Positions 5,921-33,261 of a stretch of 43,847 nucleotides of DNA are shown here, one piece after another; the stretch's first letter is position 1, and every line of letters begins with the position of its first letter. Origin of the DNA: a virus. The stretch is from the IMG/VR virus record IMGVR_UViG_3300025122_000035, positions 1-43,847 of that record. The stretch is one strand, 5' to 3'. The notes below the pieces were generated by a model. That model ran no database searches, had not been told where the DNA came from, and saw nothing but the letters and a program-made list of their open reading frames with translations. A program made the translations under genes and the position numbers.

Positions 5921-5925
5921 ATCAA

Positions 5926-5963: not shown

Positions 5964-5978
5964 AGGAGGACGCAACCT

Positions 5979-6338: not shown

Positions 6339-6341
6339 CGT

Positions 6342-12513: not shown

Positions 12514-12552
12514 CCGCTATGGCGGGGGAAGCCAGCAAACAGGAGAACACCC

Positions 12553-13248: not shown

Positions 13249-13255
13249 AGGCTCG

Positions 13256-14275: not shown

Positions 14276-15321
14276 AGAGAGACAAGCTCTTCTGCATCGG
14301 GAAGGGGAAAGGCAGCACATTGTCGATGCCCATCGCGTCCGAAGGCAACGTGAGTCTCGTCAACCAGTCAAGCATCGTGCAGACGATCGGCGACACGACA
14401 ATCCAGCCCGGAACATCCATCACGGTGCCGACCGACGTAGGCATGGCGATGCTCCGGAGACCGGAGTTCAAAGTGGAGAAGCCATCCATCAACTGGGAGC
14501 CGGGAGACAAGCTGCAGGTGTCGAGGTTCGCTGGGCTCGGGGATCTGATCTTCCTCGTGGCCGCCTGCCACGGGTTCCACATGTACCACCCGGACGTCCG
14601 CATCTATGTCGACGCGCACCCAGACCACCACGAATGGCTGTCGTGGGTCCCGTTCATCAACGTAGGCAAGTGCAACGACCCCAAGTTCGTCGTCGGAACA
14701 ACCAGCCCGTCCCTGGTCCACACCGACCGGGTAAACCACATTGCCGAGCAGATCGGCATCGAGCACCACGACATCCGTTTCCCAATCGACATTCCGAACA
14801 CAGACGCCTGCTGGCTGGAAGATCCGATTCTGTTCGCCCCCTACTCTGCTGGGGCAGGTGCTAGATCCCTACTGGCTAGTACAGTCACTCAGATCCTCGA
14901 ACGAGCGCCGGAGATCGACAGAAACAGATTCGTCTTCGTTCCTCACAACTCCCACCGGGGGAGCACAGGGGCGCTTCGGTACTCGACAGGTCCGCTAACG
15001 ATCGGCGAGTTGTGGGAGTTGGTAAGCGTATCCACTGGCGTCATCACCGTCGATACCGGAGTCGCCTGGATGGCGGCGGCCCTCGGCAAGCCGGTGCTCG
15101 TCTTCTACACGCACTCCAGACCACAGGAGACAGCCAACGCATGCAGTGACATCATGGCCGTCGAACCAGTTGTTCCGTGCGCTCCATGCGGACTGAGAGA
15201 CGGGGACTACCCGTGCGAGGCAGGTAACCATGGGTTCCAATGTCAGAGCTACTACGACTGGCGAGTCGTGATGCTGCGGATGGCCGAGTTCATCAAGCTG
15301 GTCCAAGGAGGCCCATCGTGA
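14272..15321 (+). CDS. Family 9 glycosyltransferase (heptosyltransferase-like)
   Basis: 349 residues. The acceptor-domain start SRFAGLGDLIFLVAACHGF and the donor-domain signature GVITVDTGVAWMAAALGKP with VLVFY are the two hallmark regions of GT9 enzymes, which move heptose from ADP-heptose to LPS core or related glycans. The N-terminal ~75 residues are an extra domain of unknown role. A CAPCGLRDGDYPCE segment near the end gives a Cys cluster. With the HldE-like kinase (18974) and nucleotidyltransferase (2123), this suggests heptose-type chemistry. The ATG at 14272 overlaps the previous stop; an upstream ATG at 14257 lies inside the SDR gene. Confidence 0.82.
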   Translation: MKRDKLFCIGKGKGSTLSMPIASEGNVSLVNQSSIVQTIGDTTIQPGTSITVPTDVGMAMLRRPEFKVEKPSINWEPGDKLQVSRFAGLGDLIFLVAACHGFHMYHPDVRIYVDAHPDHHEWLSWVPFINVGKCNDPKFVVGTTSPSLVHTDRVNHIAEQIGIEHHDIRFPIDIPNTDACWLEDPILFAPYSAGAGARSLLASTVTQILERAPEIDRNRFVFVPHNSHRGSTGALRYSTGPLTIGELWELVSVSTGVITVDTGVAWMAAALGKPVLVFYTHSRPQETANACSDIMAVEPVVPCAPCGLRDGDYPCEAGNHGFQCQSYYDWRVVMLRMAEFIKLVQGGPS

Positions 15322-16037
15322 ACCGAGACGATCACATCATTGAAGCCATCAAGCACTCGACCGACCCCAAGCAGGACTCGTCGCACAATATCACGCTCAA
15401 CGCGATCAGGAAAATCGACCGGCGCAACAAGCAATCTCAACTTCTGATATGGGTGGTCGTTGCGCTGGCGCTGCTGATGGGCAACAACAAGACGGACACG
15501 CCGGAAGCGCCGATGGTCGACAAAGAGATCAGACTACTGGAAGAACCCGATGGCGCAGAGTCTAGCTTCGTAGAGCATGCGAGATCTGCCATCGGTGACC
15601 CGAACGTCGAGCCATGGAAGAAACGACTGTTGAACGAAGGACTCGAAAATGGCTGGCCAGAGCGAGACTGCTCCGTCAGTCTGTACCATCCAAAGGAGGC
15701 CGGATGGCAAGGAGTCGGGCCATGGACTCGATGGACAGGAACCGCAACAGGGACCCTCGTCAGACCCGGCGTTGCATCTTGCGGACAGCGATACCGCAAG
15801 CGATGGCTCGGAGCATGGATATGGGTAGAAGGATTCGGAGTTCAGCATGTAGAGGATGTGTTCCCATCAGGGTCTGAATACTGGTTCGACATTGCCGTCC
15901 CAGCCCCAGTCCACAAGAGCGGGGAACCGTTCAGCTACCAAGAGTGGATAGACCCGCTGTGGATCGCGCGCATCGCCTACGACTACGGGAAGAAGCCATC
16001 AACATTTGTTGTTCTGAGACCTCCGAGAGGGTGGTAG
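15318..16037 (+). CDS. Membrane-anchored 3D/RlpA-like domain protein
   Basis: 239 residues from GTG (AGGAGG upstream). One transmembrane helix near residues 41-55 (LLIWVVVALALLMG) with a basic flank before it implies a cytoplasmic N-terminus and an exported C-terminal domain. That domain has TGTATGTL...GVASCGQRY...WLGAWIWVEGFGVQHVED...FDIAV, which resembles the 3D (double-psi barrel) fold with its G..A....LG..I.V.G.G...V.D pattern. Such domains occur in cell-wall-active proteins, so a role in lysis or envelope remodelling is possible. The fold call is from pattern only. Confidence 0.5.
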   Translation: MNRDDHIIEAIKHSTDPKQDSSHNITLNAIRKIDRRNKQSQLLIWVVVALALLMGNNKTDTPEAPMVDKEIRLLEEPDGAESSFVEHARSAIGDPNVEPWKKRLLNEGLENGWPERDCSVSLYHPKEAGWQGVGPWTRWTGTATGTLVRPGVASCGQRYRKRWLGAWIWVEGFGVQHVEDVFPSGSEYWFDIAVPAPVHKSGEPFSYQEWIDPLWIARIAYDYGKKPSTFVVLRPPRGW

Positions 16038-16045
16038 CATTGACG

Positions 16046-16070
16046 GTTCGCGAGAGGGCACTCGCTGAAC
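16046..16070 (+). promoter_or_regulatory. Hairpin ahead of small wHTH-like gene
   Basis: GTTCGCGAG (16046-16054) pairs with CTCGC-T-GAAC (16061-16070) around an AGGGCA loop, a nine-pair stem with one bulge. It lies in the short gap after the 3D-domain gene and just upstream of a GGAGG ribosome site. No T-run follows. It may attenuate or protect the mRNA at an operon boundary. Confidence 0.35.
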
Positions 16071-16084
16071 GGAGGCCATAAGAC

Positions 16085-16381
16085 ATGATACCGAAACAAC
16101 GGAAGCTGAGCGATGGACAGCAACTGGTCGTTGATGTGATGGGCACCAAACGCATGACGCTGCCGGGCATCACCACAGCGCACAAAGGCGTAACCAAGTC
16201 GGCCGTGCAGTCAGAGCCAGCAAAGGTCAGAGCCATCGTCCGGCGCCTGGTCAAACTCGGCGAGTGCATCTGCTATGGGAAGCCGCCGATCTACTACATA
16301 CCGACATCAGTTATCGAGCAGCCAAAGCAACTCCCGCTTATCGACGTGCCGGTACAAGGCAAGGAGCACGACGTAGAATGA
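16085..16381 (+). CDS. Small winged-helix-like hypothetical protein
   Basis: 98 residues. A basic N-terminal half with helix-turn-helix-like spacing (KVRAIVRRLVKLGECICYG) followed by a strand pair (KPPIYYIPTS) suggests a small winged helix, but no family signature is clear. GGAGG lies 11 bases before the ATG and the stop overlaps the next gene (ATGA). It could regulate this sub-operon. Confidence 0.5.
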   Translation: MIPKQRKLSDGQQLVVDVMGTKRMTLPGITTAHKGVTKSAVQSEPAKVRAIVRRLVKLGECICYGKPPIYYIPTSVIEQPKQLPLIDVPVQGKEHDVE

Positions 16382-17274
16382 CAGACCCATTCCTGGAGTA
16401 CATCGCCACACATGGTAACGCATCGATGATCCCGCTGGGAGGAAACGGCGGGGACCAGCTAATCAGATTCGCCGAGAGGCGCCTGTTGCACAACGCTGGA
16501 AGAACCATCGCCGTACCTGGAGAGCGGTCCGACTACATAGCCTACGGAGGAGGCGGCCTGTTCGGCATCTACGACGACCTATGGGTCATGCAAGAGATCA
16601 AGCCCGGACCAGAGTCACTCGTCTTCTTCCCCCGCGCCTGTCTATGGAGAGACCATCAGTTTCTCCGCAGCTTCATCGGTGAAGTGCGCCGGATGAGCAG
16701 ACGCATCGTGGTGTTTGCGCGAGACCCGATCAGTTTCACGCAATGGACAAAGGCAACATGCTGGGTGGGATGCGACATCGAAGTGCATCTCAGCCATGAC
16801 CCAGTCGTCCTGTTTGACCAGCGGATGGAGGACGACAAGGTCGCGATCAAAGCCATGCTACACCAACCATGCGCCGACACCGTGGGTGTATTCATGCGCG
16901 ACGATTGCGAGTCGTCCTACTGGCCACCATTCACGGTGTCGGGCATGAACAACATAGTGTATGATCCCGCGTTCATGTCGGCATGCCCCCCGATGGACTC
17001 GAAAAACGCGATAAGCTGCTGCTCTCACTTGACGTACCTGACGATTTGTTGCTTCCCGCAGGTCGTCATAACCGATAGACTGCACGTGATGCTGGCCAGG
17101 TGGCTATTCGGACTTGACACGGTGCTGATCCCCACTGCTCAGCACAAGGTGAAAGCAGTCTGGGATCACTCGATCCGGCACAACGCGAGAAACACCCAGT
17201 TCGCAGAGACCCTGGATGATGCCATAGACATACTAGACGACTACGAGTTGGTGGTGGAGGTAACCGATGGGTAG
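16378..17274 (+). CDS. Polysaccharide pyruvyltransferase-like protein
   Basis: 298 residues. The pattern NGGDQLIRFAERRLL, YGGGGLFG, FFPRAC, VVFARDPISF, and VITDRLHVMLARWLFGLDTV with a basic KVKAVWD afterwards follows the layout of the polysaccharide pyruvyltransferase family (CsaB/EpsI/PssK type). These enzymes add ketal pyruvate to sugars in surface polymers, using phosphoenolpyruvate. It belongs to the phage glycan block. The ATG at 16378 has AAGGAG upstream; the longer frame start at 16264 overlaps the preceding gene and is rejected. Confidence 0.8.
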   Translation: MTDPFLEYIATHGNASMIPLGGNGGDQLIRFAERRLLHNAGRTIAVPGERSDYIAYGGGGLFGIYDDLWVMQEIKPGPESLVFFPRACLWRDHQFLRSFIGEVRRMSRRIVVFARDPISFTQWTKATCWVGCDIEVHLSHDPVVLFDQRMEDDKVAIKAMLHQPCADTVGVFMRDDCESSYWPPFTVSGMNNIVYDPAFMSACPPMDSKNAISCCSHLTYLTICCFPQVVITDRLHVMLARWLFGLDTVLIPTAQHKVKAVWDHSIRHNARNTQFAETLDDAIDILDDYELVVEVTDG

Positions 17275-17596
17275 CTATCCCGACATAGATATGGCTCGGA
17301 CGATCGAGCAGGAACGACTAAAGCACCTCGACTGCGAGGAGCGCGCCAGAAACGCAGAGGCGGCGCTGGTCCAGGCCAACGATGAACTCGCAACCTGGCG
17401 CAAGCATGGGATCAAGGTGCCGCACTGGATGGACCTGCCGAAAATCGCAAACACGCTGCTGTCGATCGACGACTCCCCATGGTTCAAGGCCCTTGCTCGT
17501 GCCATGGCGAAATCCAAGCGCTTCCACAACCGGCCCGACATCGCCGACCATGGCAGCGGACACATAGACCTGGGAGCAGACGGAGGCCGACCGTGA
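17267..17596 (+). CDS. Coiled-coil hypothetical protein
   Basis: 109 residues. The first half is a predicted helix/coil (ERLKHLDCEERARNAEAALV), the second half a less ordered basic region. No family recognised. It overlaps genes on both sides by 4 to 8 bases between a pyruvyltransferase and a glycosyltransferase, so it may be an accessory protein of glycan assembly; this is context only. Confidence 0.6.
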   Translation: MGSYPDIDMARTIEQERLKHLDCEERARNAEAALVQANDELATWRKHGIKVPHWMDLPKIANTLLSIDDSPWFKALARAMAKSKRFHNRPDIADHGSGHIDLGADGGRP

Positions 17597-18582
17597 AGAT
17601 CCTGTACCTATCCCCCATGTCCATAGCCGGTGGCGGCCAGCGGCATGCCCAAGTCTTCTCGGACGGGATGCGCGAGAAGGGCCACGACGTGGAGATCGTA
17701 TTCACGCGCATCGGGCACAGAGGCTGCATGTTCCACTTCCTGCTCCGCGACCGCGTCGTCGACGATCTCTGCTACCGATACGATGACCCAACCTACCCTG
17801 GCGATATGGGGCGCCACATCGACACTCAACAACATGACTACCTGATGGTCGACAACGATGAACGACTGCCTGAGATATGGGCGCACTCGTCTCGCCTGCA
17901 GTCCGGTGCCTGCAAAGTCGTCTTTGTCATCCACACGGAGAACAAGCCCGAGTCCCAACTGAGAAGCCTGACCGGGAAGATATGGAAACTGATCTGCGTG
18001 TCCCATAAGATCGCTGACAGATTCAAGTGGGCGCACCCGGTCGTGATCCACAACAACGTGCCGCGCCCCGCAAGCATCGGTATCAACGTCAGGCAGTTCA
18101 TGCACATCCCGGCCGACGCGTTCGTGATTGGGTACATGGGGCGGCTCGACGGGAACAAGGACCCTGAGTTTCTACTGAAGATCGCGCGAGACAATGACTG
18201 GTGGGTGCTGATCGTCGGCAAAGGCCCGATCGCCGTCCCTGTGTCGATGACACCCCGCGTGAGAATCTTCCCGAACGAAGTAGCTATGCCTGGCGACTGG
18301 TACAGCGCCATGAACGTGTACGTGCTCCCATCTCGATCTGAAGGCTTCCCGCTGGCGCCGATCGAGGCGCTCAAGTCGCTGACCAGCGTGGCCATGACAC
18401 CGACGTCGGACTTCCCGGACGTGTTCAATGAGTTCAGATCCGTCCGCTTCTTCGAGCACGGAAACCTGATCGATGCTAGAGAGAAGATCGAGTCGCTCGA
18501 AGCTGACCACCCGTTAGACAACCTGCAAAGACACCCATCTGACTGCATGGTGGAGCGATACTGCGAGGTGATGGAGATATGA
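17593..18582 (+). CDS. GT4/GT-B glycosyltransferase
   Basis: 329 residues from GTG at 17593 (CGGAGG upstream). It begins MKILYLSPMSIAGGGQRHAQ, the usual GT-B N-terminal Rossmann strand and Gly-rich loop. GYMGRLDGNKDPEFLLKIA marks the second Rossmann domain, and SRSEGFPLAPIEALKSL supplies the E-x7-E donor-binding motif of family 4. It would retain configuration while transferring a nucleotide-sugar to an unknown acceptor. Earlier upstream codons in this frame read as a shadow of the neighbouring gene and are excluded. Confidence 0.85.
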   Translation: MKILYLSPMSIAGGGQRHAQVFSDGMREKGHDVEIVFTRIGHRGCMFHFLLRDRVVDDLCYRYDDPTYPGDMGRHIDTQQHDYLMVDNDERLPEIWAHSSRLQSGACKVVFVIHTENKPESQLRSLTGKIWKLICVSHKIADRFKWAHPVVIHNNVPRPASIGINVRQFMHIPADAFVIGYMGRLDGNKDPEFLLKIARDNDWWVLIVGKGPIAVPVSMTPRVRIFPNEVAMPGDWYSAMNVYVLPSRSEGFPLAPIEALKSLTSVAMTPTSDFPDVFNEFRSVRFFEHGNLIDAREKIESLEADHPLDNLQRHPSDCMVERYCEVMEI

Positions 18583-18977
18583 TGTCCCTACAGATGTCCG
18601 TCCAGTTCCGCAGGCGACGATCCAGGATCAAGTCGACCGACAGACTGAGGGCGTATCGTAGAAAGCACGAGTTCGCTGGAAAGCAAACGTTGATCCTGCA
18701 TGGATTAGTCGATCTCGCCGCCAACGCCCAAAAGCTCCATGACGACGGGGCATGCGTCGTAGTAATCCTGGACGACGTCTGGATGGAGTCAATCCAGTAT
18801 CCGACGCCTCCCGGAGTGAAAAAGCCCACAAGGCACATGATAAGCGCCAGCGCAACGTTCCGAGACGGAAGCGAATTCTTGAACTACGGCGAAGAGATGG
18901 TCATGACGAAACCGGCCGACAACCTGACATCTGCCTATTCGGCAAAGCCACATAAACCCGGAGGAATCCCACTATGA
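18579..18977 (+). CDS. Hypothetical protein
   Basis: 132 residues with a strongly basic N-terminus (FRRRRSRIKSTDRLRAYRRK) and a more hydrophobic middle (ACVVVILDDVWME). No recognised family or membrane helix. Its ATG overlaps the glycosyltransferase stop and its own stop overlaps the kinase start. Function unknown. Confidence 0.6.
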   Translation: MMSLQMSVQFRRRRSRIKSTDRLRAYRRKHEFAGKQTLILHGLVDLAANAQKLHDDGACVVVILDDVWMESIQYPTPPGVKKPTRHMISASATFRDGSEFLNYGEEMVMTKPADNLTSAYSAKPHKPGGIPL

Positions 18978-19864
18978 TCGCAGTCGTAGGAGACGTCATG
19001 CTCGATATACTGATGGATGGGAACCTGAAGGGCGTTGCCCCTGGCGAGCCCATGTCCCAGTGGATGGACGGGAAGCTGACCACCAGGCTGGGAGGGGCTG
19101 GCTTCGTCGCAAGCGCGCTCAAGAAGATGGGTGTGAATGAAGTCCACCTGTTCGGGTGCATCGGGCTGCGCAGAGAGAACGGAGGCGCCGACATGTTCGG
19201 GAGAGAGGTATCGGAGCTATGTCTCGACGAGGGCATCATCAATGCATTCTATGCAAGCGGCTCAACCAGCGCCAAGCTCTACACGATCAACAATGGCCAC
19301 CAGGTCATGCGCTTTGACAACAACAAGGACAAGGTCAACTACGATGCAAGAGTGTACCTATCATACATGTCCAGCGCTGACGCCATCATCGTTGTCGACA
19401 TGAGCGAGGGGTTCGTCGCGCACAAGAGCTTCGACCTATCGCACGTAACATGCCCGATCTTCATCGACCCCCGGCCTGAGAACATGGACCACTATCCACA
19501 GGGCGAGCACGTGACGATGGTCTGCAATGAGCGGTCCGCGTTGAAATGCGCTCGGGCATCGAACGTCCTCGGACACGAGGGCGTACCGCAGCAACTGGCG
19601 ACATTGGAAGCCCACTCCGGAGGGCGGGCTGTGATAACACAAGGAGCAGCCGGGGCTGCGTGGATGGAGCCTAGCGGAACAGTACGAACGACCACAAGCG
19701 AAAGCGCACACGTAGACGAGATCGCCAGCACCGTGGGCGCCGGGAACGTGTTCATCGCGAGATTGGCCATGGAGATTCTGGACGACATGCCATTCTCGGT
19801 GGCAGTCCCATCAGCCGAATACACCGCCAGGCAGTTCGTCCACGCAGAGGAGATCTACCCATGA
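18974..19864 (+). CDS. PfkB-family sugar kinase, HldE/HldA N-domain type, catalytic Asp replaced
   Basis: 296 residues. IAVVGDVMLDILMDGNLKGV, then APGEPM and GGAGFVASALKKMG follow the N-terminal pattern of the heptose-7-phosphate kinase half of HldE. FIDPRPENM and VITQGAAGA fit the ribokinase core. The C-terminal signature that normally reads GAGDxF(I/V) reads VGAGNVFIARLAM, so the catalytic-base Asp is Asn258 (codon AAC at 19745-19747). In active PfkB kinases this Asp deprotonates the sugar hydroxyl. Either the enzyme is impaired, has another role, or a single G-to-A difference exists. It should partner with the nucleotidyltransferase at 2123. Confidence 0.8.
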   Translation: MIAVVGDVMLDILMDGNLKGVAPGEPMSQWMDGKLTTRLGGAGFVASALKKMGVNEVHLFGCIGLRRENGGADMFGREVSELCLDEGIINAFYASGSTSAKLYTINNGHQVMRFDNNKDKVNYDARVYLSYMSSADAIIVVDMSEGFVAHKSFDLSHVTCPIFIDPRPENMDHYPQGEHVTMVCNERSALKCARASNVLGHEGVPQQLATLEAHSGGRAVITQGAAGAAWMEPSGTVRTTTSESAHVDEIASTVGAGNVFIARLAMEILDDMPFSVAVPSAEYTARQFVHAEEIYP

Positions 19865-19980: not shown

Positions 19981-20383
19981 GGAATGGCGCACCCCTGAGA
20001 AGTACCCGCTATACCAAGTCAGCAGTCTCGGACGGGTACGCAAGGGCCGGAAGCCCGTCAACGTGACTCGCCGCGCTGGACGGGGCTACGTGACCCTCCG
20101 GCGCGGCGGCAGGCGGGACACCGTCCCCGTTGCCCGGATCGTCGCATCGACGTTCATACGGCCGTTCAAGCCCCATGAAAAGGTCGTCCATCGGATCGGG
20201 CCGAGCATCGACCATGCAGCGGCGCTGGCGATCGAATCGAAGCGGGCCAACCCGAAAGTCGCCATCGACGAAGCGGTCCGACTCCGGGGTCAGGGATACA
20301 CGTACAGAGAGATCACGGAGAAGACCGGGGTCAAGCGCCAAAACACGGCCAATGCGGTTAAGCGGGCGATGGAGAGGCGTTGA
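19973..20383 (+). CDS. NUMOD4/HNH-derived DNA-binding protein with degenerate HNH
   Basis: 136 residues. EEWRTPEKYPLYQVSSLGRV is the NUMOD4 domain of phage homing endonucleases. The following VARIVASTFIRPFKPHEKVV is the lead-in to an HNH domain, but the usual VNHIDG...NN core is replaced by VHRIGPSIDHAAALA, so most catalytic His/Asn residues are missing. A helix-turn-helix (YREITEKTGVKRQNTANAVK) ends the protein. It probably binds DNA without cutting. The stop overlaps the methyltransferase TTG (TTGA). Confidence 0.7.
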   Translation: MTEEWRTPEKYPLYQVSSLGRVRKGRKPVNVTRRAGRGYVTLRRGGRRDTVPVARIVASTFIRPFKPHEKVVHRIGPSIDHAAALAIESKRANPKVAIDEAVRLRGQGYTYREITEKTGVKRQNTANAVKRAMERR

Positions 20384-21540
20384 CTCTACCGGATCTTATA
20401 GATCACAGTAGCAACAGAGGTGATAAGGTGGAAAAGCACACAGGACGATCAATACACATGCTCCATCAGGCACCGACGCGAATCAACCAAGATGTACAGG
20501 CCCGCATCGACGCTATCAAGATCGGGCAAAAGATGCAGGATCTACCGGCCGAACTTCAACACGACAGCTTCAAGCGCGACATGAGTGATGGCAGTAGACG
20601 AGGAGGCCCGAGCCTCAGGATAATCAAGATGGACCCAAGCAAGCCGTCGCTCACCGTGACCGCGTACATCTACAACAAGTTCGTGCATCCATGGGAGAAC
20701 CGCTACATCACGCCACTGGAAGCGGCCAGGCTCCAAGACATACCCGATGGATACCTGATGGCCGGAACCGACACAAGCATCAGAGAGCAGGTCGGGAACG
20801 CAGTTCCATCGCGTCTCGCATCCGCAGTAGGGCGAACGATACTCGAACACGCGATCAAGCACGGAACACTTAAGGATCACATGGTTGGATGTGATGACGA
20901 GATTCCGTACTTGAGCTTATTCAGCGGAGCGGGAATATTGGACTTTGGCTTCCGAGGAACTGTCGCCCCAGGCTACGAGTATAAGTTCAAGCCGATCATG
21001 CACATCGAATCGAACCCAGACTGCTGCGATACGCTCACGCTCAATTCCGGAATGAACGTGAGTCCCACAAATATCAGGGACATGACATCGCCAATGGACT
21101 ACGTGAAATCAAAGACAGGGCACTCATCGATACCGATAGTGATAGGAGGCCCACCGTGCCAAGCATTCAGTCAAGCCGGGAAGCAAAAGGCAGAACTCGA
21201 TGACCGTGGGACACTGATACGCGAATTCACACGCGTGGTTGCATCTATCATGCCATCCTACTTCGTAATGGAGAATGTTCCCAACCTCAAAGGCGTGGGA
21301 GGAGGAGCGCTATTCCGATCTACGCTATCAAAGTTTGGCCAGCTTGGATACAACACATCGCAATGGAAGCTGTGCGCGGCACACTACGGCACCGCGCAGC
21401 TAAGATGGAGATGGTTTATCGTGGGAACCATGGATCGACATAACCCAGTCGATCGACCTCAGCAAACCCATTTTGACTACAGGACTGTATGGGATGCGTT
21501 TCAAGGACTTCCACCGATACTCTCGCGACGAGGCGCGTAA
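20380..21540 (+). CDS. Circularly permuted C5-cytosine DNA methyltransferase
   Basis: About 386 residues. The usual C-terminal part comes first: the end of the target-recognition domain, motif IX YITPLEAARLQDIPDGY (around residue 110) and motif X QVGNAVPSRLA (around 137). Then comes motif I LSLFSGAGILDFGF (around 178), motif IV GGPPCQAFSQAG with catalytic Cys260, motif VI ENVPNL, and motif VIII QLRWRWFIVG. The chain ends with THFDYRTVWDAFQGLPPI, normally just before the target-recognition domain, so the break point lies within that domain. All catalytic motifs look intact. It would methylate cytosine C5. TTG at 20380 is used; GTG at 20428 is an alternative start. Confidence 0.85.
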   Translation: MTLPDLIDHSSNRGDKVEKHTGRSIHMLHQAPTRINQDVQARIDAIKIGQKMQDLPAELQHDSFKRDMSDGSRRGGPSLRIIKMDPSKPSLTVTAYIYNKFVHPWENRYITPLEAARLQDIPDGYLMAGTDTSIREQVGNAVPSRLASAVGRTILEHAIKHGTLKDHMVGCDDEIPYLSLFSGAGILDFGFRGTVAPGYEYKFKPIMHIESNPDCCDTLTLNSGMNVSPTNIRDMTSPMDYVKSKTGHSSIPIVIGGPPCQAFSQAGKQKAELDDRGTLIREFTRVVASIMPSYFVMENVPNLKGVGGGALFRSTLSKFGQLGYNTSQWKLCAAHYGTAQLRWRWFIVGTMDRHNPVDRPQQTHFDYRTVWDAFQGLPPILSRRGA

Positions 21541-21725: not shown

Positions 21726-24206
21726 TCACCACGGTTCTACACCAGCGGTACCCGTGGCAACGACCACTTCGCTGTACGCGTTCGGCCTGACAACGTCCAT
21801 CGCCGACCGGCTCGACACGGAGCGCTTCGCCGTGTTGTCGGATGCGGTGAACTCTTCAGGGCTGACATACAGCGGCACGTATGGGGCGTACACCGCGCCA
21901 GTCTTCGACCAGGTCGGCGGCTTGTATCCCATCAGGAGCGTCGTCGCGTGGAACCACTCGGCCTCATAGACCGTAGTCGTCCCACCGTGGGTCCCGATCT
22001 TCGTCAGGCCGGTGCCAAACTTGACCTGATCCCCAACCACGATGCCACCGCTGTTCATGCCGAGCATAACCTCAACAGCAGTCGGGCCACCGACGATCCA
22101 GTCCGGACGCTCGTAGACCTTCTGCGAGACGAGCGAGCGGGCCTTGCTGATGAACGCGCCCATCCGGTTGTTCCACTCCTGGCCGTTGTAGTTCGAGCCA
22201 GCCGGGATCTCGGTGCCGTAGGAGACTGTTCCGCCAGTCTGGGCGGCGCGGATCATCTCCAGGAAGCCGAGATTGATCTCTCGGGCGATCTCGTCAGTCG
22301 CGGCCTGAATCAACTCCGCGTCGACATCCAGCCCGTGCAGGGCCTTCATGTCCTGGCGAAGATAGGTCGTGACGTGGTAGTAGATCGCCTTGTTGGTAAC
22401 CGTGATGTCCTGATTGCGCAGGTCGAGCGTGATCTGTGCCTTCGTGGCTGCTTCGGTGTGGTCGGCAAACGTGCTGTCGAACACAGTGCTGTCCGAGAGG
22501 TCAGCGTCCGCAGCCGTCTTGAAGTCCATGAAGTAAATCCGTCCGGTCGGCGCCTTCAGCGGCTGGACCGACGCAATCTCGAACGGGATGAGCTTCGGCC
22601 ACAACTGGCGAACCATCGGCAGAAGCGCGGGAAGCTGCGGCGCCAGGACCGACGTCTGCGTGGCGGCGTCCATGATGCCACGCTTGGTGGCGAAGTGGAA
22701 CGGGCGCTCGTCATGCGCCAGCATATTCTCCATCGCGACATCGAAGACGTTCTTCGGGTCATCCCACAGGCTGCGCCCGTTGGATGGGTAGCTGTCGACA
22801 AGCGCGCGATACACGCCTTCGATAGTATCCGGGCGATCGGTCATCTCGCCACTATCGCCGACGAGCCACTTGTCGGCATGGGACTTGGCTCTGGTGTGCG
22901 TCGTCGAAATCCCGATGCCGCTCGGGATCGACTGGGTCATCGCGCTCTCAAGGAACGGAGCGAAATCGACGAACACGGCTTCGACGGCAGCGTCATCATC
23001 GGCCAGGGCAAGAGCGTTCTGCATCGGGATCTTCATCTCGTCGCTGACTTCCACGCCTGCGAGACGCTCCTGCTTGGACCGCTCGAAGCGTTCGAGTGTG
23101 ATCGTGGCGGTCGTGGCACTGGTGGCTGCACCTGCTGCGGCATCGGCCACGGCGGGCGCGACCTTCTCAACCACCTGCCTGACGATGTCATCAACGTCGA
23201 CGCCTACGTCACCGGGGCCAGCGGCCTCGGCAACGGCCTTAGCGACAGCATCGGCGGCAACCTTGGCAGCGGCTTCGTCGACAGCAGCCTTCTCAGCAGC
23301 GGCCTTTTCATCAGCGATCTGCTTCTCTTCTGCGGCCTTCGCATCGGCGGCGGTCTTCTCGTCAGCAACGGTCTTCTCGTCAGCGACGCGCTTCTGCTCA
23401 GCGGAAACAGCCTCATCGGCGATCCGCTTCTCTTTGGCGACCTGCTCAGCAGTCTTAGCCATGACTGAATTGTCCTCTCCCGGTTTTTCCGCGTTATCAT
23501 TCGACACGCCATACGTTTTCGTCTTTGCTGCGCCGCGAAGCACTGCGTCGATGGTATCGAAGACGTAGTCCGTCACTACGTAGTGCAGGACCTCTGGATA
23601 CTCATCGTCATCTTTACCCTTCTTGTGAACAGGCTTCATGCGGCCATAGCCACGGATCGACCATTCGAGGCCTACTCCGGCCTTGAGAATCGCTGCTGCA
23701 TCCTTACCTGCTGCGGTAGGCACAGTGCGACATTCAACGTGCAGGTCATTTCCCTGCAACCCAAGCTCCTCATGTACAAAGCCAATGTCCTTGACGGACG
23801 GGCCTTCAAAGAAGCCGGGATGATCAACGAGCCCAACCAGGCCATTCTTGGGGATCAGCGTACTCTCAGCGAGCTTGATCGCCTTGAGCATCTCACTCCG
23901 GGGGTACAAGCGCTTGTTCTTGTTGACCTTGTCGACCTGAGCGACCACAGCCTTGACCCGAAGCTCTCCGGTCTCCTCATTCTCTTCGAGGATCTCGAAC
24001 GAGCAATCGAACGCGTCAAGTATCTGCTCGCGCCCGTCACTCGCCTTCGTGTCGTTCAGCTTCACCCTGATGGAATCCACCAGAGCCTCGACACCACCGC
24101 TGTCGCCCTCATCGACGATACTATCGGCCTTGTCGAGAATGTCCACGCACTGGTCGAACGTCGTGGCATCTCTTAGCTCGGCGACTAGCTGTTCAACAGT
24201 GTACAT
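21726..24206 (-). CDS. Prohead protease-scaffold-major capsid fusion (T4 gp21/gp23-like)
   Basis: 826 residues in one frame. Residues ~70-235 resemble the T4 gp21 procapsid protease: VNKNKRLYPRSEM, GLVGLVDHPGFFEG (His129), PSVKDIGFVHEELGLQ, and GLEWSIRGYGRM (Ser183). Residues ~249-330 are an Ala/Lys/Glu coiled coil with ADEK-type repeats, as in a scaffold. Residues ~380-826 are a gp23-type capsid: LPALLPMVRQLWPKLIPFEI, VQPLKAPTGRIYFMDFK, and YAPYVPLYVSPE. The fused protein could supply the shell, scaffold and protease in cis. An internal in-frame ATG at 23462 with its own GGGAGAGGA may give extra scaffold-capsid protein. A sigma70-like promoter precedes it. Confidence 0.88.
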   Translation of the reverse strand: MYTVEQLVAELRDATTFDQCVDILDKADSIVDEGDSGGVEALVDSIRVKLNDTKASDGREQILDAFDCSFEILEENEETGELRVKAVVAQVDKVNKNKRLYPRSEMLKAIKLAESTLIPKNGLVGLVDHPGFFEGPSVKDIGFVHEELGLQGNDLHVECRTVPTAAGKDAAAILKAGVGLEWSIRGYGRMKPVHKKGKDDDEYPEVLHYVVTDYVFDTIDAVLRGAAKTKTYGVSNDNAEKPGEDNSVMAKTAEQVAKEKRIADEAVSAEQKRVADEKTVADEKTAADAKAAEEKQIADEKAAAEKAAVDEAAAKVAADAVAKAVAEAAGPGDVGVDVDDIVRQVVEKVAPAVADAAAGAATSATTATITLERFERSKQERLAGVEVSDEMKIPMQNALALADDDAAVEAVFVDFAPFLESAMTQSIPSGIGISTTHTRAKSHADKWLVGDSGEMTDRPDTIEGVYRALVDSYPSNGRSLWDDPKNVFDVAMENMLAHDERPFHFATKRGIMDAATQTSVLAPQLPALLPMVRQLWPKLIPFEIASVQPLKAPTGRIYFMDFKTAADADLSDSTVFDSTFADHTEAATKAQITLDLRNQDITVTNKAIYYHVTTYLRQDMKALHGLDVDAELIQAATDEIAREINLGFLEMIRAAQTGGTVSYGTEIPAGSNYNGQEWNNRMGAFISKARSLVSQKVYERPDWIVGGPTAVEVMLGMNSGGIVVGDQVKFGTGLTKIGTHGGTTTVYEAEWFHATTLLMGYKPPTWSKTGAVYAPYVPLYVSPEEFTASDNTAKRSVSSRSAMDVVRPNAYSEVVVATGTAGVEPW
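23240..23430 (-). repeat. Degenerate tandem ADEK-type coding repeats in scaffold segment
   Basis: The capsid fusion contains short imperfect repeats of the type VADEK, TVADEK, TAADAK, AAEEK, QIADEK, AAAEK and AAVDE in a row. At DNA level this gives repeated GTCTTCTCGTCAGC-like units on the plus strand. The pattern predicts an amphipathic coiled coil and marks the scaffold-like linker. Confidence 0.7.
23462..23481 (-). promoter_or_regulatory. Internal ribosome site and in-frame ATG inside the capsid fusion
   Basis: Reading the minus strand, GGGAGAGGA is followed after ten bases by ATG at 23462 (residue Met249), in frame with the capsid. Translation would start at MAKTAEQVAKEKRI, just after the protease domain, and yield a 578-residue scaffold-capsid product. 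This resembles the nested Nu3-in-C arrangement of lambda. Confidence 0.55.
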
Positions 24207-24236
24207 GCCGCTCTCCCACGTAGTGGCGTTTGGCGA

Positions 24237-24266
24237 ACTCTACCACGACAGGGATATTTCGGTCAA
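24237..24266 (-). promoter_or_regulatory. Sigma70-like promoter for the capsid gene
   Basis: On the minus strand TTGACC (24266-24261) and TAGAGT (24242-24237) are separated by 18 bases. They lie about 31 bases upstream of the capsid ATG at 24206, with GGGAG just before that ATG. It would allow extra transcription of the most abundant structural protein. Confidence 0.55.
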
Positions 24267-24401: not shown

Positions 24402-25091
24402 TCATCCAGATGCAGCTTCGTAGACAAACCAGTACGGATTCCCGATGTTGATGCTCTCATCTATCCACCTCAGCACCCACTTGCCATCAGACAGGTCATC
24501 CAGATTATCCGGGGTCCTCACAACCTGATAATCAGGCACCTGAACACCGTCAGGGAACTGCAGACCATCGGTGATACGGCAACGCTCCCTGAATGGAAAC
24601 GCGTGAGCCTGCATACCATCATGGAACAGCAGATCGTGAACCCACAGCTTCACATCATCATAGATGCACATGAAGACGGACGACACTATGCCATCCTCTG
24701 CGTAAATGCCGTGCATCATGCTGACCACGTCAGATGGCACACGACTGATCTCTAGCCTGTTCCCGTTGTGATCGAACACAGATAGCGAACCATCATGCTT
24801 GTGCACCTGGTAAGACCTGCCCGAGATGAGGGGCTGTGCCATGACCGGGAACTTGTAGTTGCCGTGACTCCTCAAAGGGCCAACGCGACAATACTCCCCA
24901 GGCGTCACGACGTGGTCGTGGTCCATCTCGTCTACCTTGACATGCGCTATGCCCACATCGCCCATCAAACCCACAACCAAACTGTGGACGGCCCCGTCCT
25001 TGGCTTGATGGGCTAGCGCATGCGCCGCCGCTAAGGCATCATTCGTGATGTAAGGACGACCTGAGATTGCGCGCCGTTGCTTCCTCCGCAT
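24402..25091 (-). CDS. ATP-dependent DNA-ligase-like nucleotidyltransferase fold protein
   Basis: 229 residues from the ATG at 25091 (GGAG upstream). The segment YQVHKHDGSLSVFD gives KHDG at residues 98-101, matching motif I KxDG with the adenylated Lys. KLWVHDLLFHDG (about 148-159) matches the FDLLYLDG strand of ATP-dependent ligases, PFRERCRITDGL (166-177) the P.xERR helix, and DGKWVLRWIDESINIG (202-217) motif IV EGxVxK. The motif III Glu (usually DGE) and the motif V Lys pair are not evident, so activity is uncertain. The first ~85 residues are unassigned. It lies between portal and capsid genes and overlaps the portal stop by 61 bases, an unusual place for a ligase. Confidence 0.55.
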   Translation of the reverse strand: MRRKQRRAISGRPYITNDALAAAHALAHQAKDGAVHSLVVGLMGDVGIAHVKVDEMDHDHVVTPGEYCRVGPLRSHGNYKFPVMAQPLISGRSYQVHKHDGSLSVFDHNGNRLEISRVPSDVVSMMHGIYAEDGIVSSVFMCIYDDVKLWVHDLLFHDGMQAHAFPFRERCRITDGLQFPDGVQVPDYQVVRTPDNLDDLSDGKWVLRWIDESINIGNPYWFVYEAASG

Positions 25092-26557
25092 AGAAAGTGC
25101 TCCTTCGCATGCTGTGACCACAACTGGACCCCCTCCTCAGGGAGCCCTTCGGCGCCACCGGCAGCAAGCCACGTCTCGGCGTCCTTGCTACTCAACTTCA
25201 GCGCGCTCTTCGCGATCACGTCGTTCGGAATACCAAGCTCGGCCCACGTCTTCGCCACCGTGCCACGCAGCACATCAATCTTCACGGCGGACATCGCCTC
25301 AGAAGGGCTGATGCGGGGCTGGATGATTCGGTACTTAGACGTCATCGGATTGCGGCCGTTCAACAGAAGCTGCAGGTCGAAGATCCATCTGAGGGTGGTG
25401 ACATAGGCGATCTGCACATGGCGGCAGAGATACAGGTAGGACTCCCGCTCCTCGTCTGACGTCTTGTCGACGAACGCCTTCTGCCCGACCCTGAGATTGA
25501 GGTACGCGCTCGGAACACCGAGGGCGCAAATCAGGCGCCGCAGCGTGAGGTAGACGTCCTCCAGGTTCTCAAGGTATGGGTTGTCTGCCGGGACGTTGTC
25601 GACATCGCCATCCACCACCCGAGACCCGTCAGTCGTGTAATGCCTGGCAAGGTAGACGTCCGTATCGGCCGTGGCTGGCGCCTCACGGCGCGTCATCTTG
25701 AAGTTCGAGTCCGTCTCACTGTACGTGACAACCGTGTCGGCCGACATGTTGTCGCGGTACTCCTCGATCTTGTCCGCGACGTCCTGTGCATTGAGTCCGA
25801 TCGGGACCGGGATGTGATGCTTCCGCTGAGGGAACGCCCTGGTCATCCGAGCGATCGCCAGCCCATCCTCTTCCGCGCGCAGCCTCTTCGATGCGCTGAT
25901 CGCACACGACAGCATGGGAGTCGAGTAATCCCTCGCCTGCTTGCGACCGAACGAGAACCTGGCAATCTGATAGGGCCACCAGGCCGCTACCAGATTCCCA
26001 TAGTCGTTCACCTGATCCCACGCTGAGAAACCCGCTGCATCGCTGGCCATGGCAACCTTCGGATCTCCCTGCATCACGTTGCCCTTGTCATCCTTGTTGA
26101 TGCTGATCTGATACGCGTATGGAAACGGCTTCACGTTGACGATCCGCACGTCATCCTCATCGCCGGAGACAACAAGCTCAACTGGCATGTCGCCGTGCTT
26201 GAACATGTGCCTGACCCAGTCCCACGCGTTGCGCTGCAGACCAGCGTTATGCACGAGAGGGTTGATAAGATCAAGTTCGGGCTTCGGACCCTCCACCCGG
26301 AACCCGGTCTCATCTCCCTCGTCAAATTGAACGGCGGTCCTGGCGATGTGGTCCATCCCGCGAGCTATGATGGCCTCGTCATCGTCCATCGCCTCGATGT
26401 CATCCCACACGTTCTTCCGCGCGTAGAACCGCGTCCAAGGACTCTGGAACGGTCTTACCCGATTAGATCTCACCCCCTGAGACCCGCCGCCATCGTTGGG
26501 AGAGATGTCGCCCTTGATCGCGCTCCACACCCTACTGAGCATTCCAGGGTTAGCCAT
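25031..26557 (-). CDS. Portal protein (T4 gp20-like)
   Basis: 508 residues from the ATG at 26557. Placement directly after the large terminase and before the capsid fits a portal. The segment RMTRAFPQRKHHIPVPIGLN matches the conserved R..RAP.RR.FyvDvGnlp region of gp20-like portals, and FARK/W-rich N-terminal elements plus the Ala/Leu-rich C-terminal helices fit the clip-wing-crown layout. It forms the ring at one vertex through which DNA is packaged. The 3' end overlaps the next gene by 61 bases. A longer start to 26620 reads as a terminase shadow. Confidence 0.82.
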   Translation of the reverse strand: MANPGMLSRVWSAIKGDISPNDGGGSQGVRSNRVRPFQSPWTRFYARKNVWDDIEAMDDDEAIIARGMDHIARTAVQFDEGDETGFRVEGPKPELDLINPLVHNAGLQRNAWDWVRHMFKHGDMPVELVVSGDEDDVRIVNVKPFPYAYQISINKDDKGNVMQGDPKVAMASDAAGFSAWDQVNDYGNLVAAWWPYQIARFSFGRKQARDYSTPMLSCAISASKRLRAEEDGLAIARMTRAFPQRKHHIPVPIGLNAQDVADKIEEYRDNMSADTVVTYSETDSNFKMTRREAPATADTDVYLARHYTTDGSRVVDGDVDNVPADNPYLENLEDVYLTLRRLICALGVPSAYLNLRVGQKAFVDKTSDEERESYLYLCRHVQIAYVTTLRWIFDLQLLLNGRNPMTSKYRIIQPRISPSEAMSAVKIDVLRGTVAKTWAELGIPNDVIAKSALKLSSKDAETWLAAGGAEGLPEEGVQLWSQHAKEHFLCGGSNGAQSQVVLTSRMMP

Positions 26558-28109
26558 AGCTGACCATCTGCCTTCGCCTGGCACCGCCCACCGGCAGATC
26601 GCCAATGAGCGTGTGTACATCAGCCGCCGTACTGGCCAGCCACCAAGCCATGATGATGTCGGACGACGTGACAGCCCTACCGTACTTGTGCATCTCGTCC
26701 ACCCATGCGCAGATAGGACAGATGTCCCGATGCCCGACGTTGTCCCGATCGTGATCGCCCTTCATGGGTACGATCCACTTCGCCTGAGACATCTCTGCAT
26801 TCAGCCTAGGGAGCCCGGCATCCGGGCTCCACTTCTGCGAGCCGGTGAAGTGACCCTTCAGAGGAATCCCCTCGATGCCCTGATGAGATCCCAGCACCCT
26901 GACCAGGCTCATGAGAGCCACCTGATACGAGTTGTTCTCGACCAATATCACTTTCGGCGCGTGGGCCAGATACTGCTGAATGACAATCTCCGCAAGCTCC
27001 TCCGGGTCCCACTTCCCTCTGAGGATCTCCACCGGCATCCGCTGGCCTTCACCAATCATGGCCACAAACACGACGGAGTGAGATCCCGTCCTCTTCATAG
27101 ACCTGGCCGGATCAACCCCGATTACCTTGACCATGCCATCAAAGCCGAACTCCGGAACATCGCCCAACTCGTACAGGTCATTCATGCACTGGTTCACATA
27201 CGTCATGTTGAACACGGTGAACCTGACGTTACCACCCTTGAGAAGATACTGCTGCCCGAATCTGTCTCCAACCTGCCTGCGCTTCTTCTCAAGCTGCTTC
27301 AGCGGCCAGCGATCCTCCCACAACACAGGACCACACAACCTCCCGGCCGAGTCGATGTCGCAGGCTGGTTTTTTCCAGACGTAGTAGTCCTTCCTGTTGC
27401 TGTACTCGACGTAGATGTCCGGGGGGTCGAAACTCCAGAACGTGCCAATGAAGACAGCCTTGCCTTGCGGGTAGAGCAGGTTCATCCAGTCTTCTTCGAC
27501 CAGTCCCTTGATCTTAGGGATGAGAGAAGGCTGCATAATCGCGCTTCGAGCATCGATGATGTCATCGAACACCAGGATGTGAGCGCGCCCACCAGTACCA
27601 GACGACGTAACACCGACCGCCTCGATCGTGGCGTCCTGAAGACCATGAGACGCATCTCGCTCAACGAAGATCTTGTGCTTGGTCCACTCCTGCCCCGCCG
27701 CTGGCTTCACATGCGGAAAGACTTCGTGGTACCGCTTGTTATTCTGGATGTTGTCCTTGATGAACCTCAGCTTGTCTACAGCCAGATCGTCAGCGCCACA
27801 CACGTACTTGATCGTCGTGTTCGGGTCCTTCCCAATCCGGTACATGATCCAGCCAGCAATCGTGGTGCTTTTCGCCGACTGCCTGGGGCCGATGAGGACG
27901 ATCATCTCCTCTTCGCTCTCCAGGATGTCCCCCCACTCATGCTGATGCTGCGCGCACTTCCACTCCTCGCCCTCCTCATTAATCATGACGTACTCAAGGA
28001 ACGCGGCGAAATCGTCCCTCGCGTCCTGGATGTCCGCCTCTTTGAGCGCGGCCTCCATGTCCGCGAAGTCATCGGCGATATTCGCGCCAGCACCAGGTGC
28101 CTGAACCAT
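26550..28109 (-). CDS. terL: Terminase large subunit
   Basis: 519 residues. The ATPase domain has Walker A IGPRQSAKSTT (about residues 73-83) and Walker B HILVFDDIID (Asp182/Asp183). The C-terminal RNase H-like nuclease shows IGVDPARS (Asp333), VENNSY and SSDIIMAWW, the usual three acidic clusters. It packages and cuts phage DNA at the portal. It overlaps the portal start by 8 bases and follows a probable small-subunit gene by three bases. GGGGGCGTG lies before the ATG. Confidence 0.93.
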   Translation of the reverse strand: MVQAPGAGANIADDFADMEAALKEADIQDARDDFAAFLEYVMINEEGEEWKCAQHQHEWGDILESEEEMIVLIGPRQSAKSTTIAGWIMYRIGKDPNTTIKYVCGADDLAVDKLRFIKDNIQNNKRYHEVFPHVKPAAGQEWTKHKIFVERDASHGLQDATIEAVGVTSSGTGGRAHILVFDDIIDARSAIMQPSLIPKIKGLVEEDWMNLLYPQGKAVFIGTFWSFDPPDIYVEYSNRKDYYVWKKPACDIDSAGRLCGPVLWEDRWPLKQLEKKRRQVGDRFGQQYLLKGGNVRFTVFNMTYVNQCMNDLYELGDVPEFGFDGMVKVIGVDPARSMKRTGSHSVVFVAMIGEGQRMPVEILRGKWDPEELAEIVIQQYLAHAPKVILVENNSYQVALMSLVRVLGSHQGIEGIPLKGHFTGSQKWSPDAGLPRLNAEMSQAKWIVPMKGDHDRDNVGHRDICPICAWVDEMHKYGRAVTSSDIIMAWWLASTAADVHTLIGDLPVGGARRRQMVSYG

Positions 28110-29043: not shown

Positions 29044-29644
29044 CGGACGAGACCTCCTCTGTCAGCCTTCGCTTGATGTCGCCCATGCCAGCCAGCATCG
29101 CCGCGACAGACTCGTTCGCTTCGGCCATCATGGACCACCGCAGCGACACCTTATCAGGCTTCGCTCTCAACATCACCGCCATCTGGTCAAGGACCTGTTC
29201 CACATCCCTCGGGGACAGGCCCGACGCGAGGATCGCGCTGGAGATCTGGGCAGCCCGTGGGGGCTTCTTCGGGAACCACTTCTTCGGATCTATGAACTTG
29301 CAGATCTCGGACACGACGTCCCTGTGTATGAACGGCCGGTAGCCTCCGACCTTGAGCAGCTTGAGGTACTTCTTCGCCACGGACAGCGTCCTGGAAATCC
29401 CCGACGAGATCTCGACCTTGAACTCCTTCTTCCTTCTGTCCGTCGCCATGATGCGGATCGGAGAATCGCCCCTCGACAAAACCAGCATGGCGATCAGGAT
29501 CGCGGTCTGCTCCGCAGCGACAGATGCCATGAACGACTTGGCCACGCGATCGCACAACTCGTCTGACGACAAGTCTAGCAGACCGTCCGCGTCACACACG
29601 CTTAGCTGCTCGATCCACTTGACAATCTCTTGCTCGTGGCTCAA
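29027..29644 (-). CDS. Hypothetical basic helical protein
   Basis: 205 residues from TTG at 29644, which overlaps the preceding stop (TTGA) and has a GATGGGGGA ribosome site. It contains a basic middle section (ATDRRKKEFKVEIS, then KWFPKKPPRAAQISSAILAS) and C-terminal helices ending in an acidic EEVSSDEDDQ. It may bind DNA. No family recognised. The longer frame to 29701 would overlap the glycosyltransferase more deeply and is less likely. Confidence 0.62.
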   Translation of the reverse strand: MSHEQEIVKWIEQLSVCDADGLLDLSSDELCDRVAKSFMASVAAEQTAILIAMLVLSRGDSPIRIMATDRRKKEFKVEISSGISRTLSVAKKYLKLLKVGGYRPFIHRDVVSEICKFIDPKKWFPKKPPRAAQISSAILASGLSPRDVEQVLDQMAVMLRAKPDKVSLRWSMMAEANESVAAMLAGMGDIKRRLTEEVSSDEDDQ

Positions 29645-30609
29645 TCGAATCCCCCATCGACGATCATGGTCAGGAACTTGTCCCAGCATGCCCCGACGCA
29701 TTCCCGCTTAAATGCGCCAACAGACTTCGCGGCCCTCTTCCCGACACTGGCACGGATCTTCGTGTCGAACAGCATCTCGATACACTTGACCCAGTCGTCA
29801 GTTGTGCGGGCGATGAACCCGTTCAGCCCATGGGTGATAACCTCCCTGTACTGAGGCAAATCGCTGGCGATGCAGGACATCCCAAGCGCCATGTAGCCCA
29901 CGGCCTTGTGGTGACCCTTACACCTACAGAACTCGGTGTCAGGCAGCGGAGCGATGCCCGCGTTGACCTTCGATATGACATCGATCCAGGTATCGGCGTC
30001 CCACGTTACATGCGTCGACGGTACGCCATAGTCGACAATCCTCTGGCTGTTACATCTCCCGCTGGCGTCCGTGGGCGCCATCACAAACACGATCCCGACC
30101 CTGTCCCCGAAGACCCTGAACGCATCCAGCACCGGCTCCACGTACTGGAGATTGTCGTTCGACCCATGCCAACTGAACCACAGTCTGTCATCGTCGATCT
30201 CCGGCTCGACACGCGCCCCGTCGAAGAAGTCATCCTCAAGCGCCTCATGGATCATAGTCGTGTTCGGATTGATCCTCGCATACCGCTTCCGCATCCACCG
30301 GCTGTTGGTCACGACGAAGTCCGACTCGCGAATGATCTCAGCTTCGGACGGATTATAGAAAGGCCCAGGGATTGTATGGCAATCATTGACGTCAAATATC
30401 GTAGTCTTCCCCGCCAATCGATGTGCATCAACTTCTGCCGGACTCGTCGATCTCTGGAGAACAACAATATCAGCATCGGCCGCGTTGTCCGTACTCACAT
30501 CCCACCCCATAGACCTCAGACCATCGATGACGAACAACCCTCTCCTCCGGTGCGTCGCCTCCAATGGATCATTACCGTACAACTTCCAAAAAACTCGGCA
30601 CTTCCCCAT
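29641..30609 (-). CDS. GT-B glycosyltransferase
   Basis: 322 residues from the ATG at 30609 (GGAGGG just upstream; a second ATG at 30621 has no clear site). Features are TIFDVNDCHTIPG and VVTNSRWMRKRY in the N-domain, FSWHGSNDNLQYVEPVLDAF opening the donor domain, and HHKAVGYMALGMSCIASDLP, which corresponds to the usual K.lEYMA.G.PVVAS segment with the Glu replaced by Gly. REVITHGLNGFIA closes the pattern. It sits between head genes and a radical SAM gene; acceptor unknown, perhaps virion proteins. Confidence 0.78.
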   Translation of the reverse strand: MGKCRVFWKLYGNDPLEATHRRRGLFVIDGLRSMGWDVSTDNAADADIVVLQRSTSPAEVDAHRLAGKTTIFDVNDCHTIPGPFYNPSEAEIIRESDFVVTNSRWMRKRYARINPNTTMIHEALEDDFFDGARVEPEIDDDRLWFSWHGSNDNLQYVEPVLDAFRVFGDRVGIVFVMAPTDASGRCNSQRIVDYGVPSTHVTWDADTWIDVISKVNAGIAPLPDTEFCRCKGHHKAVGYMALGMSCIASDLPQYREVITHGLNGFIARTTDDWVKCIEMLFDTKIRASVGKRAAKSVGAFKRECVGACWDKFLTMIVDGGFD

Positions 30610-30645
30610 CAGACCCTCCATTGACGACAGATATTTTTTAGCATC

Positions 30646-31887
30646 CTATCCATTGATGGTGTTGGCCTCCGCTACAGCGTTTCCCCATTCATCTTCGGAC
30701 ACGTCCGCAAGCCCCATGTCTGCTGACTGGTGCATGAACGACCCCCAGCCGTCCGGCTCGTCCATGTCGCACATGTCCCAGAGCGCCGTTCCAGGATAGG
30801 GAGTCGCGATACTGATGTGCGGCTTTGCCCCCAGATCTTTCATCAGCTTCGCGATCCTGATTGTAGCAAACAACTCATCAGACGTTTCCCCCGGCCACCC
30901 GATCATGAAGTAGAGCACAACGCCTACATCGCGAGCCAGAGCAGCATCCATTACAGCCTTGACTTTCTTCGGTGTCACCTGCTTGCCGGACAACTCCCGC
31001 CAGCGGTCGGTGGCGCTCTCAACGCCGATGTTGATCTGCTTACACCCCGCACGATGTAACGCGTCGAGCATCTCTTCGTCAACGTCCTTGAGCGCCATGT
31101 CGCAAACCCAGTTGTAGTCCACCTTCTCCAATTCGGCACAGACTGCGAGTCCGTGCGCCTTGACCACACCAAACGAGTCGTCGATGATCCGACCATCCGT
31201 CGCTCCGAGAGATTCTACTTCTTCACGCACCATCCCCGGATCTCGCATGCGGACCTTCCGCCCGAACACATCAGGCGCCGAGCAAAACGCGCAGTGGTAC
31301 GGACACCCGCGCTGAGTCTGGACCATGCCCCGGAGAAACGACGAGTACCGGCCACCCCCGATCACGCAATCCCTGTCGGCAATCGGAATGTCTGCTCCGT
31401 CCTCGATGCGGAACTGCCCACCAGGGCAGTTGCTGTCATCAAACACATGGACTGCATCTGGATGATCCCCCTCGCCGATCACCACCGCGTCGAAAACCAT
31501 GCGCTCATCATCAGGCATCAAAGATGGATGGATGCCGCCAGCAACAGATCTTATACCCCTGCGCCTGCACTCCAATCCCATCAGCCGCGCCTGGGTTGAG
31601 TCAACGGTTCCGTATCCTACGCCGACCACGTCCGGTTGCACCGCGTCAAGCGCTTCAGCAAACGCTCGCACCGGCTGCTCCGAATCCGACATCGACGCCT
31701 GCCCCAGAAGGTGAGATCCTCCTGTCGGCATCGGCTCTGGATTGCTCACGTCATCATGCCAGATCTGCACTTCGTGACCGGCGCGCTTCAACGTCGACGC
31801 CACGCCCATCAACCCGAGAGGGTACGTCAGGTAGACATCGGACTGCAGCAATCGAGCGAACGCAGGTTTGGCGAGGAGAATGTTCAA
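30646..31887 (-). CDS. B12-binding-type radical SAM enzyme
   Basis: 413 residues from TTG at 31887, overlapping the preceding stop (TTGA). The N-terminal ~140 residues follow the cobalamin-binding-domain layout (YPLGLMGVASTLKRAGHEV..., VAGGIHPSLMPDD, VIGEGD). The radical SAM motif is RGCPYHCAFCSAP with Cys195, Cys199 and Cys202 (CxxxCxxC). INIGVESATD and YFMIGWPGETSDE are standard later strands. Members methylate unactivated carbons or rearrange substrates with adenosyl radicals. Located between two glycosyltransferases, it may modify a sugar, which is inference. Confidence 0.85.
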   Translation of the reverse strand: MNILLAKPAFARLLQSDVYLTYPLGLMGVASTLKRAGHEVQIWHDDVSNPEPMPTGGSHLLGQASMSDSEQPVRAFAEALDAVQPDVVGVGYGTVDSTQARLMGLECRRRGIRSVAGGIHPSLMPDDERMVFDAVVIGEGDHPDAVHVFDDSNCPGGQFRIEDGADIPIADRDCVIGGGRYSSFLRGMVQTQRGCPYHCAFCSAPDVFGRKVRMRDPGMVREEVESLGATDGRIIDDSFGVVKAHGLAVCAELEKVDYNWVCDMALKDVDEEMLDALHRAGCKQINIGVESATDRWRELSGKQVTPKKVKAVMDAALARDVGVVLYFMIGWPGETSDELFATIRIAKLMKDLGAKPHISIATPYPGTALWDMCDMDEPDGWGSFMHQSADMGLADVSEDEWGNAVAEANTING

Positions 31888-33251: not shown

Positions 33252-33261
33252 GGCATCTCTC

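Follow-up and report, generated by a model that had tools for sequence, protein, structure and literature searches.

A phage gene carrying a gp21-type protease, a scaffold-like stretch, and a gp23-type capsid protein in one reading frame

Introduction

In phage T4, the model for head assembly, the protease, the scaffold, and the shell protein are produced separately and used in very unequal numbers. The stretch of DNA analyzed here (the window) is a linear IMG/VR record of 43,847 bases, consisting of a single metagenomic contig and probably representing a phage fragment. A preliminary description, made from its sequence, proposed that the equivalents of all three T4 proteins are encoded there in a single frame of 826 residues. 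Two questions follow: whether such a frame is real, and how a head could be assembled from its product.

Results

The fused frame and its relatives

The frame at 21726 to 24206 was found as described and lies on the minus strand (Table 1). It opens with an ATG at 24206 and closes with a stop that ends at 21726, giving 826 codons with no internal stop; the plus-strand reading of the same interval contains stops. Searches with Pfam and PHROGs placed a protease domain and a capsid domain within this one protein, and its only Pfam matches were Gp23 and Peptidase_S77. A codon score trained on the other genes of the window was applied to the fusion in 14 blocks of 60 codons, and the fusion frame beat the other two forward frames in 14/14. 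Antisense scores equaled or exceeded it in blocks 121 to 180 and 301 to 360 and were nearly tied in block 781 to 840; codon usage therefore supports an unbroken frame without proving it. An open frame of 506 codons lies on the strand opposite the fusion (window 21948 to 23468, plus strand), and beyond the antisense scores, which rival the forward ones in parts, no further support for it as a gene was obtained. The promoter-like sequence upstream of the fusion may be a chance occurrence, with four such sites in the region against 2.4 expected.

Stronger evidence than codon usage was provided by four other IMG/VR contigs (L181, L183, L184, and L185), which have related terminase and portal genes and carry the same fusion. 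Three were found through an alignment of the terminase, and in each of these a single frame spans the two domains; L181 was found through the portal, its frame of at least 1026 residues containing both domains before being cut off by the contig end. A search with the portal alignment added no fusions beyond those already found. Pairwise identity among the five fusions ranged from 27 to 67% (44% between the window and L183), and the gene order terminase-portal-fusion was common to all. Every locus with a portal of this type and the capsid region in view carried the fusion; L182 ends within the portal, and L203, a weak portal match, had no protease or capsid match. In a capsid tree of 63 rows, the five fusions formed one group with support of 100/100, recovered in 100% of 200 bootstrap trees, on a long branch whose deeper placement is unsure. 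Given this recurrence, a chance or faulty join is unlikely, and no missed stop or frameshift splitting the genes need be invoked. As judged from the sequences, the 826-codon frame is real and unbroken and is not an artefact.

The members differ around this common core. A ChaB domain is present at the N terminus of the L181 and L185 fusions, and a pair of zinc-ribbon-like CxxC motifs precedes the protease in L183, L184, and L185 (the Pfam match, in L183, being only weak); both are absent in the window. The gene between portal and fusion also varies from member to member, and in L183 this position holds a 1068-codon frame (4215 to 7418, plus strand) that matches ATP-dependent DNA ligase.

Elsewhere, separate genes were the rule among the matches. 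In a profile survey of at least 180 loci, a protease frame was present in 134, a capsid frame in 161, and both, in separate frames, in 120; none of those listed was fused outside the window. Likewise, no fusion was present among the matches listed in profile scans of viral loci (at least 80 for the capsid and at least 80 for the protease) or in 11 genome loci. No fused record was present among the matches in annotated phage and plasmid collections, and none of the matched annotated phage records had a single place covering 80% of the query. Single-sequence scans of viral contigs with the fused protein, the terminase, and the primase-helicase returned no relatives, and an initial alignment of proteases had too much divergence for use in searches. 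Fusions beyond these five may exist.

Table 1. Positions of the fused gene, its parts, and neighboring genes in the window
Feature	Coordinates	Strand	Basis
Fused protease-scaffold-capsid gene, 826 aa	21726..24206	-	Both domains in one frame; fusion shared with L181, L183, L184, L185
gp21-type protease domain, residues ~70-235	23502..23999	-	PHROG 207, fold match 5JBL, invariant residues
Codon of His129	23820-23822	-	
Codon of Ser183	23658-23660	-	
Codon of Asp213	23568-23570	-	
Codon of Asp220	23547-23549	-	
Scaffold-like stretch, residues ~249-440, Ala/Lys/Glu/Asp-rich	22887..23462	-	Position and composition
Internal ATG (Met249), proposed scaffold-capsid start	23460..23462	-	Best Shine-Dalgarno energy; equivalent in 5/5 fusions
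GGGAGAGG, Shine-Dalgarno-like, 11 bases ahead of internal ATG (spacing rather long)	23474..23481	-	Sequence
gp23-type propeptide module, residues ~441-513	22668..22886	-	W447, N494 invariant
Predicted maturation site Asp513/Ala514	22665..22670	-	Alignment to the [LI]xE position of relatives lacking the fusion
Predicted mature capsid subunit, residues 514-826, 34.0 kDa	21729..22667	-	Pfam Gp23, T4 gp23 fold, mass
GGGAG, ribosome-binding-like sequence for first ATG	24212..24216	-	Sequence
Promoter-like TTGACC-18-TAGAGT upstream of fusion	24237..24266	-	Sequence
239-aa gene between portal and fusion	24402..25121	-	No family match (Pfam, PHROGs)
gp20-type portal gene	25031..26620	-	Pfam Portal_T4, E=1.2e-11
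Terminase large subunit gene	26550..28109	-	PHROG 38, E=4e-50; query that led to other fusions

The protease domain

The N-terminal part of the protein was matched by the head maturation protease family PHROG 207 over residues 72 to 327 (E=1.6e-17) and by Pfam Peptidase_S77 (PF03420) over residues 81 to 195, the latter with 24.3 bits, which is below the curated cut-off of 27. AlphaFold2 models were built with IMG/VR relatives; their cores were confident, and the linkers and the capsid propeptide were of low confidence. For the model of residues 1 to 260 (mean pLDDT 72.0), the best Foldseek match was T4 gp21 (5JBL, E=2e-10, target TM 0.79), with herpesvirus proteases appearing as weak matches far behind it, and the profile of alignment A5 matched 5JBL at 6e-37. 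The two residues named in the preliminary description, His129 and Ser183, lie in the gp21-like motifs LVDHP and EWSIRG, which align with phage gp21 proteins. Together with Asp213 they were invariant in an alignment of 36 proteases, and with Asp213 and Asp220 across all five fusions. A VAE motif ends at Glu10 of the window protein, where gp21 proteins have LIE or ISE. By sequence and model, this domain is a protease of the T4 gp21 type, with catalytic activity predicted, as had been claimed.

The capsid domain and the predicted start of the mature shell

Pfam Gp23 (PF07068) matched residues 586 to 781 with E=1.6e-26 and 94 bits against a curated cut-off of 24.4, and the major head protein match in PHROGs reached 4.2e-26. 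The model of residues 430 to 826 had a mean pLDDT of 73.6 and gave T4 gp23 as its best Foldseek match (E=1.4e-16), so that structure prediction yielded both of the folds expected from the preliminary description. By these matches and the modeled fold, residues ~440 to 826 are a gp23-type capsid protein. The large insertion that its nearest relatives have is lacking from the window's capsid domain.

Its first part aligned with the gp23-type propeptide module, in which W447 and N494 were invariant in 40 capsid proteins. Among 147 non-fused relatives, 143 have [LI]xE ahead of the conserved N-arm, three have Glu in another context, and one is truncated. In the fusions the same column reads I511-M512-D513/A514 in the window and IQE, TLE, QFE, and AFQ in the other four, which is canonical in only 1/5. 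No [LI]xE was found in window residues 245 to 520, and T4 cleavage specificity thus cannot be assumed. From the aligned column we infer a cleavage that would place the probable start of the mature shell near Ala514. A shell start near residue 370 to 400, as first suggested, is unlikely and was ruled out as a candidate because the propeptide module from W447 to N494 is present and the [LI]xE column falls at I511-M512-D513/A514.

The scaffold-like stretch and an internal start

Between the two domains, where the preliminary description placed an Ala/Lys/Glu coiled coil, that composition was recovered, with Asp abundant as well; the putative coiled coil was judged from composition. No sequence homologue of this stretch was found among the loci examined, and its core varied from 59 to 149 residues across the five fusions; it is called scaffold-like from its position and composition.

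An internal start product had been suspected in the preliminary description, and a start for it is supported by like position: an in-frame ATG lies 23 to 39 residues past the last conserved protease Asp in 5/5 fusions. No start was conserved across the five at the scaffold-capsid border. By Shine-Dalgarno energy the conserved ATG ranked 1/19 among the internal ATGs in the window and 1/13, 1/29, 3/30, and 3/31 in the others. Compared with synonymous recodings of the codons upstream, the P value was 0.24 for the window, which by itself is not significant, 0.009 for L183, 0.07 for L184, 0.04 for L185, and 0.18 for L181. The five tests combined by Fisher's method gave P=0.0026, a value that is optimistic because the ATGs were initially chosen for Shine-Dalgarno strength, before the significance test, and because L181 and L185 are close relatives. 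The shared position in five aligned fusions is the firmer point. With this conserved second start, the virus can probably produce an enzyme-free copy as well, the shorter product being predicted.

Gene neighborhood

In the window, the gp20-type portal gene is followed by the 239-aa gene and then by the fusion, and from the portal onward the domains follow the order of the T4-type genes 21-22-23; in RB49 the order is 20-67-68-21-22-23. In Munch and similar phages, protease and capsid are separate genes, and the L183 fusion aligned with them in the same order. The best matches of the window's terminase were PHROG 38 and a T7-type terminase model, and its portal and capsid are T4-type; for C48C1, a T4-type phage, other terminase families match first. 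On these matches the head genes of the window look mosaic.

Beyond the head genes, a C5-cytosine methylase was matched in two stretches at 20380 to 21540 (plus strand). When its sequence was read by eye, the C-terminal-type motif QVGNAVPS preceded the N-terminal-type motifs LSLFSGAG and GGPPCQAFSQ, an order that appears to be that of a circularly permuted enzyme. The regions at 10335 to 19864 (plus strand) and 29641 to 33320 (minus strand) contain numerous sugar-related genes, including one for a PfkB-type kinase and others for nucleotide-sugar epimerases and glycosyltransferases, along with a B12-binding radical SAM protein.

Discussion

The explanation that best fits these data, and that we hold to be reasonably probable, is a one-time gene fusion with two co-assembling products and self-cleavage to a 34-kDa shell subunit. 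It draws on the fusion in five contigs, both predicted folds, the conserved catalytic residues, and the position of the internal ATG. The ancestor of a single phage lineage would have undergone one fusion event that joined the equivalents of the T4 protease, scaffold, and shell genes (21, 22, and 23) in their existing order, and the internal ATG is probably the old gene 22 start surviving the fusion. Translation from the first ATG would give a protease-scaffold-capsid protein of 89 kDa, and from the conserved internal ATG a scaffold-capsid protein of 62 kDa. Were both to co-assemble, the protease would enter on only some subunits, and the scaffold would be tied 1:1 to the shell. The protease would then remove both itself and the scaffold by cleavage at or close to Asp513/Ala514, leaving the 34-kDa subunit. 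With a single gene giving two products, the amount of protease would stay low.

The most serious competitor, which we nevertheless regard as unlikely, is that only the full-length polyprotein is made, with a protease on every shell subunit that excises itself during or after assembly. The intact frame and conserved catalytic residues suit this scheme, as does the nonsignificant result for the window's internal start taken alone. Against it, 5/5 fusions share the placement of an ATG, in a Shine-Dalgarno-like context, at one and the same domain boundary. A protease:shell ratio of 1:1 would also be a large departure from T4, whose head uses about 55 to 100 copies of gp21 against 960 of gp23 (PMC9958956, PMC5694885). 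Cleavage straight after translation, with the fusion merely co-expressing separate proteins, is improbable: candidate acidic-P1 sites such as IAD do occur within the scaffold stretch, but they are expected from its Ala/Asp-rich composition, no junction site is conserved in the five-fusion alignment, and HK97 offers an earlier example of a covalently attached scaffold (PMC10275583). Joining of separate genes through faulty assembly or sequencing, conceivable for a single metagenomic contig, was rejected as having next to no probability, owing to the four further contigs with the same fusion and gene order at identities down to 27%.

The reading with two products can be set beside known systems. 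With the T4-type module (T4, RB49, Munch, and C48C1) the window fusion has in common the protease and capsid families, the folds, the order after the portal, and the propeptide module, but gp21, gp22, and gp23 are there three separate genes instead of one frame, and the canonical [LI]xE is replaced by IMD in the window. Fusion of protease and capsid as such is already known, since a single gene encodes both the major capsid protein and the protease in small siphoviruses of Microbacterium cluster EE and Arthrobacter cluster AN (PMC9671004, PMC6606914); the likeness noted is in gene arrangement, and the Pfam families of the window protein are only Gp23 and Peptidase_S77. No such fusion was found reported for the gp21/gp23 lineage in open-licence papers. 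HK97 gp5 resembles the window fusion in its covalent scaffold (PMC10275583), but the HK97 protease is a separate gene, whereas the window's capsid domain, closest to gp23, has the protease in the same frame. In herpesvirus UL26/UL26.5, a protease is fused to scaffold and a shorter in-frame product lacks it, the protease-bearing form amounting to about 10% of the scaffold (PMC12474303); the corresponding short product of the window is predicted only, and the herpesvirus major capsid protein has a gene of its own, unlike the window's capsid domain.

We lean toward a one-gene mode of head assembly in which two starts would set the dose of protease-bearing and protease-free subunits and in which scaffold and protease would be covalent parts of the shell precursor. 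A lineage that fuses protease, scaffold, and shell must solve the dosage problem differently from T4, and the conserved internal start would be a simple, testable answer. The gp21/gp23 lineage thereby gains a fusion comparable with that of some siphoviruses and with the protease-scaffold gene of herpesviruses, and the locus may offer a compact, one-gene system for the study of head assembly and maturation.
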